Shown: piece after piece, positions 2,683 to 19,963 of the stretch
Layout of the letters: each line of letters opens with the position of its first letter
How positions within the stretch are numbered: the first letter of the stretch is position 1
IMG/VR virus record: IMGVR_UViG_3300009370_000133
Span: 1 to 28,923 of that record
From: a virus
Strand: one strand, 5' to 3'
Length of the DNA stretch: 28,923 bases
Translations under genes and position numbers: made by a program
Notes under the pieces: generated by a model
What the model was told of the DNA's origin: nothing
The model's database searches: none
What the model saw: the letters and a program-made list of their open reading frames with translations, nothing else

Positions 2683-3974
2683 TTAAGGTTTACAAGGACG
2701 CTGCGGCAGGCAGCATTGTGCTGGAGGACAATAATGGCGCGCAATTTTTAAACTCCTTACAGGCAATTATTAATGTTGATGACGCTAACAATATTGACAT
2801 ACAAGATAATTCAAAAAACATAAAGCTTGTATATGACAACCCGCATGATGAGTTTATAGATTTTGACGACAATGTGTATCCTGGAACGGTGGCACAAGTT
2901 GTAAACACTTTAAATGCTTTGTTTCAAACCAGCGGCACGCCTACTGGCGAACTGCCAGAAATCACATCAAGCTTAACTGCCAGTATAACTACAGGCGCGA
3001 CACTTAATTATGAACTTATTGCTGACTATGGCGTTGGTTATGAGTGGGATTTGTCAAGTGTGCCTGGTGTAACCACAGTCGAAGGGAATGTACGTAAATT
3101 AGTTGGTGGAACAGGACTGGCGGCAGGGACGTACAACATACCTGTTAAGGCTATAAATTACAACGGCGAAGATTCGCAAACTTTAGTTTTGACAGTTGCT
3201 AATCCACCCTACAACAACACTAAGTCAGTGTTTTTTCGTCAGAATGACTATTGTGAAATGACGGCATCAACCAGTTCGCCTTTTTATAGAACTGGAAATA
3301 ACACTGGTAACGCATTTAAGGTGGCATTTTGGTTTAAGCCAAGCACCTCGAACAATCAAAATCAAACAGTTGTTAGTTTTGGTGGCAATGATTTGGCCAA
3401 TGAAGGTCGGGTTTTAATTGGCTACAATGGCAACAACTTGAATGCTGGCCGTAGAAGGATGCGATTTTTTTACGGCACAAATAACAATAATTTACAATTT
3501 TATACACCATCAGGAAGCACACAGGCAGGCGTATGGGCGCATTGGGTCTTTTTATATGATGGCGGAACAACTGAAAACGGATCGGGCGGCATAAACACGT
3601 CTTATTCGAGGTTTAAGATTTACAAAAATGCGGTCTTGCAAACCCTCACAACGTCAAATAACAATTATGGTTTTTCTGGGCAAATCCCAGCGGAAATTTA
3701 CAGGATGGGAAGGCTGTTAAATTCAGGTCAATATTTGCGTAACTGCAATATAGATGAATATGCGGTTTTTGATAATGCTTCAACAACAGATATAGCATCT
3801 ATTTATAACAGTGGCACGCCAAGTGATTTGGGTTTGCTTACTAACCCGCCTATTCAGTATTTAAGAATGGGGGACGCCAATGATGTGTTTCCAGATTTGT
3901 ACGATTATGAGGGAAGCAATGACGCTGAAATGATCAACATGACCAGTGCAGATATTGTAAGTGATGTTCCATAA
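2679..3974 (+). CDS. LamG/concanavalin-like domain tail or capsid fibre protein (431 aa)
   Basis: The N-terminal ~95 residues (MIKVYKDAAAGSIVLEDNNG) look like a virion attachment region. Residues ~95-175 form a putative immunoglobulin-like domain (YEWDLSSVPGVTTVEGN, then GTYNIPVKAINYNGE). Residues ~180-400 resemble a LamG/ConA-like jelly roll (FKVAFWFKPSTSNNQNQTVVS, WAHWVFLYDGGTT, RFKIYKN, NIDEYAVFDNA). LamG-type folds bind glycans, and in phages they occur on receptor-binding or decoration proteins. It overlaps the upstream virion gene and abuts the endolysin gene. Receptor binding is inferred; the fold assignment is reasonably firm. Confidence 0.7.
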   Translation: MIKVYKDAAAGSIVLEDNNGAQFLNSLQAIINVDDANNIDIQDNSKNIKLVYDNPHDEFIDFDDNVYPGTVAQVVNTLNALFQTSGTPTGELPEITSSLTASITTGATLNYELIADYGVGYEWDLSSVPGVTTVEGNVRKLVGGTGLAAGTYNIPVKAINYNGEDSQTLVLTVANPPYNNTKSVFFRQNDYCEMTASTSSPFYRTGNNTGNAFKVAFWFKPSTSNNQNQTVVSFGGNDLANEGRVLIGYNGNNLNAGRRRMRFFYGTNNNNLQFYTPSGSTQAGVWAHWVFLYDGGTTENGSGGINTSYSRFKIYKNAVLQTLTTSNNNYGFSGQIPAEIYRMGRLLNSGQYLRNCNIDEYAVFDNASTTDIASIYNSGTPSDLGLLTNPPIQYLRMGDANDVFPDLYDYEGSNDAEMINMTSADIVSDVP

Positions 3975-4279
3975 TGATACTTAAAAAAGGCGTAAAGTTA
4001 GAAGGTATAAAGCCTGAAATATTGATGGCTGCATGTGTGGTTAATGGCATTTACATTGATCAAGGCAGGCCAGAAGGCGTAACCATTACCTCGATTACAG
4101 ATGGTAAGCACAAGCCCAATTCACTGCATTACAGTGGGCTTGCCATTGACATCCGAACCAGGTACTTTAACCGCTCCATTCAAAAGAGATTGGCCCAAAA
4201 AATTCAAGATGCTTTGGGCGATGAGTTTGAAGTGATATTGGAGCGAACGCACATCCACATAGAGTTTGATCCGAAATGA
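3974..4279 (+). CDS. Endolysin: M15-family zinc L-alanyl-D-glutamate/D-Ala peptidase
   Basis: A compact 101-aa peptidase. Zinc ligands are recognisable as His52 and Asp59 in SLHYSGLAIDIR and His93 (or His95) in ERTHIHIEF, with Glu90 as likely catalytic residue (E-x-x-H, as in the T5 endolysin). This family cuts the peptide stem of peptidoglycan. It lacks a signal peptide, so it needs a holin for release, and lacks a separate wall-binding domain. At 101 residues it is shorter than the T5 enzyme (137 aa), essentially the bare catalytic fold. It heads the lysis cassette: holin candidate at 4509 and spanins at 4756-5326. Confidence 0.88.
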   Translation: MILKKGVKLEGIKPEILMAACVVNGIYIDQGRPEGVTITSITDGKHKPNSLHYSGLAIDIRTRYFNRSIQKRLAQKIQDALGDEFEVILERTHIHIEFDPK

Positions 4280-4755: not shown

Positions 4756-5148
4756 ATGATGAAAAAGTGGGTAATGATTGGCGGTGCTGTCGTGTTGGCT
4801 CTAGGTGTCCAGCAAATGCGAATAAACAGTAAAGAGCGAAAAATTGCCAATAAAAACCTTGAGATAACTCGCTTGAGCAATGAGCTGTCAGCGGTAATCG
4901 ATGCCAATGAATCACAAAACAAAACAATATCCCGACTCAGGGAAGCGAATGAGCAGTGTGCCCTTGATAAAGCGGTGAACTTAGAAAACTCCAAATTAGA
5001 ACTAGCATCCCAATCTGGGCGCATTCGCTCTATCCGAGAAAAGTATGAAAAACTCAAGACATCACAAGTTGCTGGGAAGTGTGCTCAGTTTCGTGTTGAT
5101 CCTGACGTGTTTGACCTCGTGCAAGAAGCGCGTAGTGATCAAGACTGA
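4756..5148 (+). CDS. Rz: Rz-like inner-membrane spanin (i-spanin, 130 aa)
   Basis: A single N-terminal membrane anchor (residues ~5-18, WVMIGGAVVLALGV) is followed by a long periplasmic coiled coil (KERKIANKNLEITRLSNELS and on), the standard layout of lambda Rz. The spanin complex fuses inner and outer membranes in the last step of lysis. The 3' part contains, in another frame, the start of the Rz1-like lipoprotein gene at 5045, a hallmark of spanin pairs. The start may be the ATG at 4756 or the adjacent one at 4759. Confidence 0.85.
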   Translation: MMKKWVMIGGAVVLALGVQQMRINSKERKIANKNLEITRLSNELSAVIDANESQNKTISRLREANEQCALDKAVNLENSKLELASQSGRIRSIREKYEKLKTSQVAGKCAQFRVDPDVFDLVQEARSDQD

Positions 5149-5326
5149 GGAAGTCCCGGTATATATCAAAACATATGTGCCGATTCCAGATGATTTTTTT
5201 GAGTGTAAGTATGCGGTATTAAGCCCGGATATGACGTGGCTTGAGACATTGCTTAAACAAGAAGAAGCTGTGAGTGTGTGTATAGAGTCTCAACAGTCAA
5301 TTCGTAACCTTCAACCTAAAGAATAA
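5045..5326 (+). CDS. Rz1: Rz1-like outer-membrane lipoprotein spanin (o-spanin, 93 aa)
   Basis: The protein begins with a basic start and hydrophobic signal (HHKLLGSVLSFVLILTCLTSC) whose lipobox Leu23-Thr-Ser-Cys26 predicts cleavage and lipid attachment at Cys26. The mature part is about 68 residues. It starts inside Rz in a different frame and runs 178 bases past the Rz stop, the overlapped spanin architecture. The mature protein is less proline-rich than lambda Rz1. With Rz it should form the periplasm-spanning complex, which points to a Gram-negative host. Confidence 0.85.
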   Translation: MKNSRHHKLLGSVLSFVLILTCLTSCKKRVVIKTEEVPVYIKTYVPIPDDFFECKYAVLSPDMTWLETLLKQEEAVSVCIESQQSIRNLQPKE

Positions 5327-17544: not shown

Positions 17545-18534
17545 ATGCCTGTAAATTTAGGTGATTTGGCCGCTTCGGTTGCTCGTAAGCGTGTCAATAC
17601 TCGAAACCCGGCTGATAACATCACAACCAACCACAGCCTGTTTTATAAAATGAAGAAAAACGGCAATTTCCGCAAAGCCAACTTTAGTGGCAACGGTGTT
17701 GTTGAATTGTTTAAAAACGGCATACTGGATGACACTGGTGGAGCTGGTACGCCAAACAACATTGGGTGGTTCAACCCATATGAAGTGTTTGCGCCACAGT
17801 CAGACCAAGAGTATATCGATGGTGCCACGTTCGACTTTAAGCAGTTGGGCGCGATGATTCAATTCACTGGTGCCGATGAAATTAAATGGGCTGGTAAAGA
17901 AAAAGCTGTTGAGCTGGTATCAACCCGTGTGGATGTGGCCATGGACAACTTGTGTAACAAGATGGGTTCAGGCGCATTTGCCGATGGTACTGGTGAAGGT
18001 GGCCGTGAAATGGGCGGCTTGCAGTTATTGGTTCAAAATAATCCAGGTGCTGCCGGGACTGTTGGCGGCATTGACCAAGTTACTAATACTTTCTGGCGAA
18101 ACAAAGCACAAGACAGTTCAGGCAGTGGTGCCGTTACTGACACTAACGTGGTTGAACGGTTTAACACCTTGCACATCCAGTTGATGCGTAATCAAGACAC
18201 CCCCGACATTGTGATCTGTGATGACTCTCATTACCTCGCTTATGAGGCATCAGAGCAGAGCAAGGGGCGTTACCTGTCGCGTGAAATGGCTGACGCTGGC
18301 TTTGACGGCTACCGCTACAAGGGCAGTGACGTTATGTATGATGTTGAGTGTCCAGCACAGCATTATTACATGTTGAACTCCAAATATTTGCATTTGCGTT
18401 ATGCAACCCAAAAATGGTTTACCGCTGAAAAAGCGAGAAAAGTTGTTTTGGGCGACCATGATGTTGTGCCTATTTGGGTGACTTGCAACATGACTGTTTC
18501 TAACCGCGCCTTGCAAGGTGTTGGCTTCTATTAA
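17545..18534 (+). CDS. Major capsid protein (329 aa)
   Basis: It is preceded by a strong ribosome-binding site (AGGAG six bases before ATG) and directly follows the scaffold gene. Segments such as FKQLGAMIQFTGADEIKWAG, then GREMGGLQLLVQNN, and late PIWVTCNMTVSNRALQGVG fit HK97-fold coat proteins of podovirus type. Length is in the usual range and no prohead protease is encoded nearby, consistent with scaffold-based assembly. A strong hairpin terminator follows its stop, which would boost capsid transcript relative to downstream genes. Confidence 0.85.
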   Translation: MPVNLGDLAASVARKRVNTRNPADNITTNHSLFYKMKKNGNFRKANFSGNGVVELFKNGILDDTGGAGTPNNIGWFNPYEVFAPQSDQEYIDGATFDFKQLGAMIQFTGADEIKWAGKEKAVELVSTRVDVAMDNLCNKMGSGAFADGTGEGGREMGGLQLLVQNNPGAAGTVGGIDQVTNTFWRNKAQDSSGSGAVTDTNVVERFNTLHIQLMRNQDTPDIVICDDSHYLAYEASEQSKGRYLSREMADAGFDGYRYKGSDVMYDVECPAQHYYMLNSKYLHLRYATQKWFTAEKARKVVLGDHDVVPIWVTCNMTVSNRALQGVGFY

Positions 18535-18544
18535 CCCCTCGATT

Positions 18545-18570
18545 GGGGCGGGGAGACTCGCCCCCTTTTT
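18545..18570 (+). terminator. Intrinsic terminator after the major capsid gene
   Basis: GGGGCG at 18545-18550 pairs with CGCCCC at 18559-18564, extended by G-U and G-C pairs to a GAGA tetraloop, and is followed by CTTTTT. An upstream CCCC (18535-18538) could instead pair with the GGGG, giving a competing hairpin. The next ATG lies two bases past the T run. It probably lowers transcription past the capsid gene. Confidence 0.8.
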
Positions 18571-18572
18571 CC

Positions 18573-19268
18573 ATGATTGAAGAAACCCAAGAACAAAAGA
18601 TTATTTATGATCAGGTAAACCCGCCAAAGCCTTTGAATGTCCGCTTTTATAACCAACCAGTGGTCAAAGAAGTCATTAACGGCGTGAAGGTTTACAAGCC
18701 CAGACTCATGGCGCAGGTTCAAGTGAAGGGCGAAAACTCATCACTCAGCAAAATAGCCACCGATGAATTGAAATTTAAGTATTCGGACGAGTATGAAAGA
18801 TTCAAAAGCCGTCAATTTGATGGCCTGACCCCTTTATGCGCATTAACCGATGAAATGACAGCACAGTCACTTATCGACATGGGCATTAAGTCTGTTGACG
18901 ACCTAGCCCAAAGCAACACATTACCTTTATTTGATCACCTCAGAGATCAAGCCAAAAAACTATTGGAGATTAAAAATGCACCTCAGAATCGATGCGAACA
19001 CCACAATCACAAAGAAGAAGTACACCGGGCCATTGAAGAAAGTAACAGCGGCCAAGGACACCAAGAAGGGCATGATCAAGATAGACGCCAATACTTGGGT
19101 CCCAGAGAAGAAAGAAATCCAGGAGGAAGTCAAGCAGGAGGCTTTGGAACAAGAAGTGGTGCCGAAGAAAGAAGTCAAAAAAACAACCAAAAAGAAAGTA
19201 ACCAAGAAGAAAACAACCAAAAAGAAACCCAAGAAATCCTAAACTTTGATTATCAGCTTTCAGCATGA
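18573..19268 (+). CDS. Hypothetical protein after capsid, with low-complexity tail overlapping another gene (231 aa)
   Basis: The ATG at 18573 is preferred over an upstream TTG that lies within the terminator. Residues 1-~135 look like an ordinary protein (VNPPKPLNVRFYNQPVVKEV; LTDEMTAQSLIDMGIKSVDD). From ~136 the frame becomes Gln/Asn/Glu/Gly-rich low complexity (NSGQGHQEGHDQDRRQYLG) because it runs out of frame through the lysine-rich gene at 18976. It does not stop until 19268, where its TGA overlaps the next ATG as ATGA. That coupling suggests the long frame is used, though loss of an earlier stop is possible. Function unknown; a minor virion role is likely by position. Confidence 0.62.
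   Translation: MIEETQEQKIIYDQVNPPKPLNVRFYNQPVVKEVINGVKVYKPRLMAQVQVKGENSSLSKIATDELKFKYSDEYERFKSRQFDGLTPLCALTDEMTAQSLIDMGIKSVDDLAQSNTLPLFDHLRDQAKKLLEIKNAPQNRCEHHNHKEEVHRAIEESNSGQGHQEGHDQDRRQYLGPREERNPGGSQAGGFGTRSGAEERSQKNNQKESNQEENNQKETQEILNFDYQLSA
18976..19242 (+). CDS. Nested lysine-rich protein in an alternative frame (88 aa)
   Basis: GGAG seven bases before the ATG at 18976 gives it a better ribosome-binding site than most genes here. The protein carries two related motifs, RIDANTTIT (residues 4-12) and KIDANTWVP (35-43), then a charged stretch and a histone-H1-like tail of Lys/Thr triplets (KKTTKKKVTKKKTTKKKPKK). It lies entirely within the 3' part of the 18573 gene, shifted by one base. 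The organised IDANT repeat argues that this frame is the selected one in the overlap. A DNA-binding or head-interior role is suggested by the basic tail only. Confidence 0.72.
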   Translation: MHLRIDANTTITKKKYTGPLKKVTAAKDTKKGMIKIDANTWVPEKKEIQEEVKQEALEQEVVPKKEVKKTTKKKVTKKKTTKKKPKKS

Positions 19269-19963
19269 TCACTTTAAAAGAAATTTTACAGGAAATTCAA
19301 GACCGCAATTTTGAAACGCCTACTGAGGTTTACGCAACGAACCCTGCGCCAAAGTATAGGCGGCTACTTACTTTTGCAAATCAGGCCGTGCGCAAAATTA
19401 TCATGGCCCATGATTGGTCGCTTTTAAAAAGGCAGCACACTGTTAATGTGGTCGATGGTCAGGAGCTTTACCCCTTGCCAGAGGATTATTACTCATTGAT
19501 AAATCAGACCACATATCGCGGCAGTACTTATTTTCCAATAGACTTTGTGGCAAATTCACAAAGCATTGCTTTTAGGCGAAACTACGATATTGGCCAAGTT
19601 CATACTGGCAGGTTATATCGCGGCCAGCTTGAGTTTGTAAACTTCCCAGCAGGTCCGGTTACTTTAGAATACATGTCCAATGGTTTGGTTCTTCATGAGA
19701 ATGGTGATTCTGACCTCAAATTTACCGCAGACGATGACCAGTTCGGTGCAGATTATTCTGGTTTAGATGAGCTTATTGTGTTGGGCACTTTAGCCATTTA
19801 CCTAAGGGCAAAACAATCAGATGGATTGGATGTAGCCATTCAAGATTATGCCTCAGAGTTAAAGCAACAAATTTATAACGACAGCGGCGCAAGATATATC
19901 AACAATCGTGGTTATGACGTCCCGGTGAAACAAGCCCCATTTAATCCTGATTATGAGATTTGA
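19265..19963 (+). CDS. Head-tail adaptor / tail accessory factor, P22 gp4-like (232 aa)
   Basis: The N-terminus ITLKEILQEIQDRNFETP followed by LLTFANQAVRKIIMAHDW is the helical pattern of P22 gp4-type adaptors that plug onto the portal. The middle is beta-rich (QELYPLPEDYYSLINQTTYR) and the C-terminal part has helix DELIVLGTLAIYLRAKQSDG. It lies after the capsid region and before the nozzle gene, overlapping it by 11 bases, the expected order for tail-tube assembly. I rate the family assignment as likely rather than certain. Confidence 0.75.
   Translation: MITLKEILQEIQDRNFETPTEVYATNPAPKYRRLLTFANQAVRKIIMAHDWSLLKRQHTVNVVDGQELYPLPEDYYSLINQTTYRGSTYFPIDFVANSQSIAFRRNYDIGQVHTGRLYRGQLEFVNFPAGPVTLEYMSNGLVLHENGDSDLKFTADDDQFGADYSGLDELIVLGTLAIYLRAKQSDGLDVAIQDYASELKQQIYNDSGARYINNRGYDVPVKQAPFNPDYEI

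Follow-up and report, generated by a model that had tools for sequence, protein, structure and literature searches.

A small lysine-rich gene nested in the +1 frame of a p50-family gene: a probable dual-coding locus in the head-tail module of short-tailed phages

Between the capsid and the tail adaptor genes of the window analyzed here (the complete stretch of DNA, which is a viral record 28,923 bases long), a larger gene harbors a small lysine-rich one out of frame, which raises the question whether a single piece of DNA encodes two different proteins at this position or whether one of the two frames is open without being used. The original prediction had left three readings side by side, namely true dual coding, an overprinted tail and an outer gene whose stop had been lost. 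The comparative data described below make it highly likely that the window contains a true dual-coding locus and allow the three readings to be joined into one, as both frames are conserved in relatives and the outer tail likely originated from the loss of a stop.

All coordinates of the original prediction returned upon rechecking of the sequence (Table 1). The inner ORF is situated wholly within the outer gene at an offset of one base (+1), it is preceded by a GGAG with a spacer of 7 nt, and it contains the duplicated IDANT motif. The outer frame indeed runs without a stop across the inner gene and 26 nt beyond it, to end in an ATGA junction where its stop overlaps the start of the adaptor gene; a sequence scan found no Shine-Dalgarno (SD) sequence ahead of this adaptor start. 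The capsid, the adaptor and the neighboring genes of the window are similar to those of Mx8-like podoviruses, and the SU10/P22-gp4-type adaptor is equated here with tubeA, a term that derives from work on the Mx8 lineage (PMC10386132). The ATG of the outer gene lacks a clear SD and is located just downstream of a terminator-like hairpin, which directly follows the capsid gene on its 3' side. The predicted fold of this hairpin (-17.9 kcal/mol) was equalled in 10 of 200 shuffles, and the candidate structure could set the ratio between capsid and connector.

Table 1. Features of the nested locus and its surroundings in the window, and related slot genes on other contigs
Feature	Position	Strand	Basis
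Major capsid protein gene	17545-18534	+	phrog_9953 major head protein, E 3.6e-55
Terminator-like hairpin with a downstream T run, between capsid and outer gene	18545-18564	+	Scan: 8 pairs, 7 G-C
Outer gene (p50 family, phrog_20268-like, 231 aa)	18573-19268	+	ATG 18573 to TGA 19268; profile and position
Outer protein, predicted folded domain (residues 1-135, with a beta part and a putative HhH-like helical part)	18573-18977	+	AlphaFold2
GGAG Shine-Dalgarno of the inner gene	18965-18968	+	Sequence; SD-like in all nested relatives
Inner gene (88-aa small basic protein)	18976-19242	+	ATG 18976 to TAA 19242, offset +1
Predicted disordered, overprinted tail of the outer protein	18978-19265	+	No outer stop; inner codons ending in T 4 versus 17 expected; low pLDDT
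First IDANT motif of the inner protein	18988-19002	+	Alignment
Second IDANT motif (KGM-IKIDANT context)	19081-19095	+	Alignments
Lysine-rich C-terminal tail of the inner protein	19165-19239	+	Alignment
C-terminal peptide of the outer protein (ILNFDYQLSA), mostly 3' of the inner stop	19236-19265	+	Same place as the DNWSVTF-like peptide of the nested clade
ATGA junction, outer stop and adaptor start	19265-19268	+	Sequence
Tail adaptor gene (P22 gp4 / tubeA type)	19265-19963	+	Pfam SU10_adaptor 6.4e-09; phrog_6013 tail protein 5.4e-23
Truncated p50 paralogues in the slot after p50	L009:8127-8387, L039:9068-9397, L040:9230-9526, L045:2761-3000, L069:4229-4525, L070:10317-10640		

The outer protein was assigned to the p50 family with a profile that was built without the window (72.3 bits, against 3.0 for the best of 500 shuffles), and its gene sits between the capsid and tail adaptor genes, as does that of Mx8 and of most relatives. 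The direct scan of PHROGs with the window's own outer protein gave no match, and the same was true of a tblastn search with the protein and a distant blastn search with the region in named phages; other members of the family do match phrog_20268, whose annotation carries no function. Genes of the p50 family usually adjoin the adaptor gene and have a tail of some 10-90 residues that ends near the adaptor start, often in an ATGA. In the AlphaFold2 model of the window's protein the pLDDT is 79-98 over residues 1-140 and about 46-77 beyond, and the boundary of the folded part (around residue 135) coincides with the start of the inner gene. Since the model is confident only for residues 1-135, the overlap would correspond to the disordered part of the outer protein; overprinted regions are rich in disorder (review PMC8227390). 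An HhH-like helical part is suggested in the N-terminal domain, where the profile resemblance to HhH domains is weak (E about 0.01). A fold search against the PDB yielded no significant match, and the five phage proteins recovered from BFVD have no established function.

Using the capsid gene as an anchor, 80 related loci were gathered by capsid alignment, and narrower alignments provided about 100 more. The nested layout was recovered in ten further viral contigs from different metagenomes, which represent nine distinct sequences (L096, L097, L101/L163, L104/L168, L118, L164/L165, L166, L167 and L169). Capsid identity in these relatives is 69-83% with L101 and about 36-40% with the window. 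In all of them a basic protein with two IDxNT-type motifs is encoded at +1, wholly within the p50 frame; the inner ATG and an SD-like sequence have been kept throughout (the latter being weaker in L169), and the p50 frame is free of stops inside the inner gene. Past the inner stop the outer frame of the nine sequences ends in [DNE]-W-x-hydrophobic-x-[FLM] (DWSMEF, NWKVDM, DWSLEF, NWVVTF, NWSVTF, EWTVTL, NWSISF, DWKVNL and NWSASF), after which the adaptor follows. This peptide can be reached solely by reading the outer frame through the overlap. The corresponding NFDYQL of the window matches it weakly (P 0.016-0.08).

Relatives with an early stop in the outer frame, or without the inner ATG or its SD, had been named beforehand as a sign that only one of the frames is functional. 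Among the nested relatives there was no early outer stop, and the inner ATG and SD-like sequence were never lost. In distant relatives, on the other hand, an early outer stop does occur, and the small gene comes after it; this arrangement is likely the ancestral layout and does not refute the function of either frame. The nested layout was not encountered among named isolates, where no capsid match above 60% identity was found in 50,697 records, and a scan of genome contigs recovered two distant capsids only. Searches of viral contigs for close relatives of the outer protein, the capsid or tubeB yielded none. The window forms a long branch, no close relative that covers the locus was recovered, and the near-identical pair L164/L165 differs at a single, uninformative site in the overlap. 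A near-identical phage does seem to exist in another sample, as a search with the portal protein retrieved a contig of 5.4 kb (L190) that encodes a 99% identical portal protein and ends before the locus.

The inner proteins make up a family of nested small basic genes that is defined in this analysis by two IDxNT motifs and a lysine-rich block. When compared with a profile of the nine nested inner proteins from which it had been left out, the window's inner protein scored 22.4 bits, the best of 2000 shuffles reaching 5.2. It shares with the family the two IDxNT motifs, the lysine-rich block, the +1 nesting, the SD-like sequence and the open outer frame, and D6, T9 and D37 are invariant in the alignment. 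The lysine block is C-terminal in the window, whereas it is N-terminal in the nested clade. A lysine/arginine-rich block is likewise found at the C-terminus of non-nested small genes (e.g. L010:6487-6636) and at the N-terminus in the nested clade (e.g. L163:7458-7652). The predicted structure of the inner protein (mean pLDDT 65) shows disorder over most of its length and one hairpin, located at the second IDANT. A search with a degenerate double-IDANT DNA pattern retrieved unrelated loci only.

The length of the inner ORF is unremarkable, for inside real genes of the window there are five other same-strand +1 ORFs of 83-142 aa that start with ATG, none of which has an SD. Two observations do exceed chance, namely that the inner protein is encoded without a stop arising in the outer frame and that the layout is conserved in diverged relatives. 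Outer stops arise solely where an inner codon that ends in T precedes AA, AG or GA. Upon synonymous recoding of the window's inner gene according to the codon usage of the phage, the outer frame was open in 0.045-0.085% of the recodings (P 0.00045-0.00085, about 1 in 1,000), and over ten nested loci this fraction ranged from 0.005% to 7%, depending on the locus. The ten comprise the window and nine relatives, the near-duplicate L165 being counted separately (ten loci plus L165). We found that T at the third position of the inner codons, which is scarce in the window (Table 1), occurs 26 times over the ten loci, against 134 expected from the codon usage of each phage. In the dangerous contexts there were 0 such codons (45 expected) and in the safe contexts 26 (89 expected). 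Among the non-nested controls, L092, L170, L102, L110 and L103 showed no clear depletion of T and had 1-11 stops in the equivalent frame, and L175 was mildly T-poor (7 versus 10.8 expected, with 4 stops); L010 and L022 were too GC-rich to be informative. Furthermore, the outer residues over the overlap are more alike within the clade than random synonymous codons would make them (0 of 400 simulations, shared descent being ignored). In the relatives both frames are thus conserved, as expected of a true overlapping pair.

The above bears directly on the alternatives to dual coding. The inner gene alone could be functional and the outer frame be open by accident, as AAA and AAG codons seldom give stops there. 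Other frames across the region are open as well (two minus-strand ORFs of 90 and 100 aa), and a permutation of solely the inner gene's own, already T-poor, codons left the outer frame open in 23% of the trials. Under the codon usage of the phage, however, the frame is open in less than 0.1% of the recodings; moreover, all ten nested loci show a depletion of T that exceeds what the avoidance of stops requires, most basic-tailed small genes that are not nested showing none, and the C-terminal peptide past the inner stop is common to the nested clade. An accident is highly unlikely on these grounds. One may also suppose that the outer extension is kept solely to bring ribosomes to the adaptor start by ATGA coupling, the peptide itself being idle. 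Such a role would suit the window, where the adaptor start without an SD overlaps the outer stop, as well as several relatives with an ATGA-type junction, but L096, L163, L168 and L118 carry an SD-like GAGG or GGAG between the outer stop and the adaptor start and still conserve the outer W-x-hydrophobic-x-F peptide. We therefore regard coupling as the sole function as rather unlikely, while coupling and a function of the outer peptide may well coexist. Finally, the lysine-rich tail of the inner protein could be the true C-terminus of p50, either reached via programmed +1 frameshifting or separated from it by an error of sequencing, like the KKKRGRP with which the single p50 of L011 and L013 ends. 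This is hardly credible, considering that the same frame relation, with an ATG and an SD-like sequence, is seen again in nine other distinct sequences, which come from different metagenomes, and that the small gene is a separate ORF in the non-nested relatives. A -1 slip from the outer frame was set aside, as it leads into the third frame and not into the inner one.

Dual coding being the preferred reading, there remains the matter of how the nesting came about. In the non-nested relatives L010, L022, L092, L095/L170, L102, L103 and L110 the small gene comes after the p50 stop, with an overlap of 1-17 nt. In L114 (2009-2209) the p50 frame is shortened and shares 146 nt with a basic-tailed small gene, again at +1, which would make this an intermediate layout. 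The likeness of the non-nested small genes, including those of nearer relatives, to the nested inner family is limited to a short motif, and their common descent across the layouts is likely from position, if not proven. Considering how widespread the p50 without a long tail is, and that an unnested small gene also occurs in the slot, the outer tail is in all likelihood the younger of the two readings, created by the loss of a stop. In a tree of capsid plus adaptor the nine nested relatives group in a clade that is supported and has L114 as its sister, and the window sits on a long branch whose placement is uncertain; one as well as two origins of the nesting are possible. That the nesting arose independently in the lineage of the window and in the other nested clade is a reading that we hold to be plausible, though somewhat doubtful. 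The tree requires two changes and rejects a single clade of all ten nested rows (p 0.029), and the lysine block is found at opposite ends of the inner protein. Against this, a single clade becomes acceptable when the partly overlapping L114 is added (p 0.36), the window's placement on its long branch is uncertain, and the double IDxNT core is common to the window and the clade. Other lineages have a truncated paralogue of p50 in the slot that follows it, in most cases with a KKRGRP-type basic tail (Table 1; related to p50 at 91.5% by hhalign). A profile comparison between the nested inner family and p50 gave no detectable link. It seems unlikely, accordingly, that the small gene represents a tandem p50 paralogue that has become smaller and been overgrown through stop loss of p50, and of which the separate, partial and nested stages survive; if it were, a gene would have been overprinted by the extension of its own relative.

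The dual-coding reading suggests the following course of events. The p50 gene would have lost its stop just before a small downstream gene, so that reading went on through that gene until a new stop was reached where the adaptor starts, the outer frame thereby probably being the overprinting one. The new tail may have been tolerated because it was disordered, and its end would have turned into a peptide that, in the nested clade at any rate, has been kept. From one message, ribosomes that begin at the p50 start would make the outer protein, a presumed head-to-tail protein in which a long disordered linker joins a folded N-terminal domain to a short C-terminal peptide, and others would initiate at the inner SD and ATG, reading the DNA that codes for the linker in its +1 frame to yield a small basic protein that carries two IDxNT motifs. 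Both proteins are thus presumably synthesized from the overlap. As the adaptor start lacks an SD and overlaps the outer stop, ribosomes in the outer frame probably feed the adaptor as well. Going by position and composition, the outer protein may act in head-to-tail assembly and the lysine-rich inner protein may bind nucleic acid; the outer C-terminal peptide could have a docking role.

The best-known example of full out-of-frame nesting that is conserved among diverged tailed phages is that of the lysis genes Rz and Rz1. The embedded spanins of lambda resemble the pair described here in that a small gene with its own start is wholly nested at +1. Unlike Rz1, however, the inner protein has no lipobox cysteine and is rich in lysine; the outer protein has a putative HhH-like domain, and the pair is part of the head-tail module. 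Identity of the inner protein with an embedded Rz1 was rejected, as its sequence contains no cysteine at all and hence no lipobox. Rz, for which an N-terminal membrane helix and a periplasmic coiled coil were required, was rejected for the outer protein, which has a hydrophilic start and is modeled as a short helix, beta strands and helices, followed by disorder. The window does contain a separate spanin-like pair in the overlapped layout, consisting of an Rz-like gene with an N-terminal hydrophobic stretch and a coiled coil (4756-5148, plus strand) and a gene for a lipoprotein with an LTSC lipobox (5045-5326, plus strand), and an endolysin-like gene is present at 3974-4279. A survey of spanins distinguished embedded, overlapped and separated architectures, mentioned loss of the upstream stop as one route to embedding, and found no family in which the embedded architecture is mixed with the others (PMC6139136). 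Here, in contrast, all three layouts occur in one gene slot, with the homology of the small genes across the layouts being weakly supported.

In phiX174, E lies within D, and the older genes A and C have acquired overlapping extensions de novo (review PMC8227390), so that internal same-strand overlap and overlapping extensions are seen there too; the present case concerns unrelated proteins of a double-stranded DNA tailed phage and is found across diverged phages. A further comparison is Mx8 p50 (phrog_20268), to whose family the outer protein belongs by profile and gene position. The tail of most p50 members is a coiled coil or basic (about 10-90 aa), whereas that of the window comprises some 100 aa, is predicted to be disordered and is overprinted. 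A description of this nested pair was not found in the literature searched, in which subscription papers were covered incompletely. It is very probable, as judged from the sequences, that in this group of short-tailed phages one stretch of DNA makes two different proteins. The pair points to small genes of the structural module that are likely missed by gene callers averse to overlap. With nesting in a structural module, and separate, partial and nested layouts in one gene slot, the stop-loss route to embedded genes that was mentioned for the spanins becomes testable.
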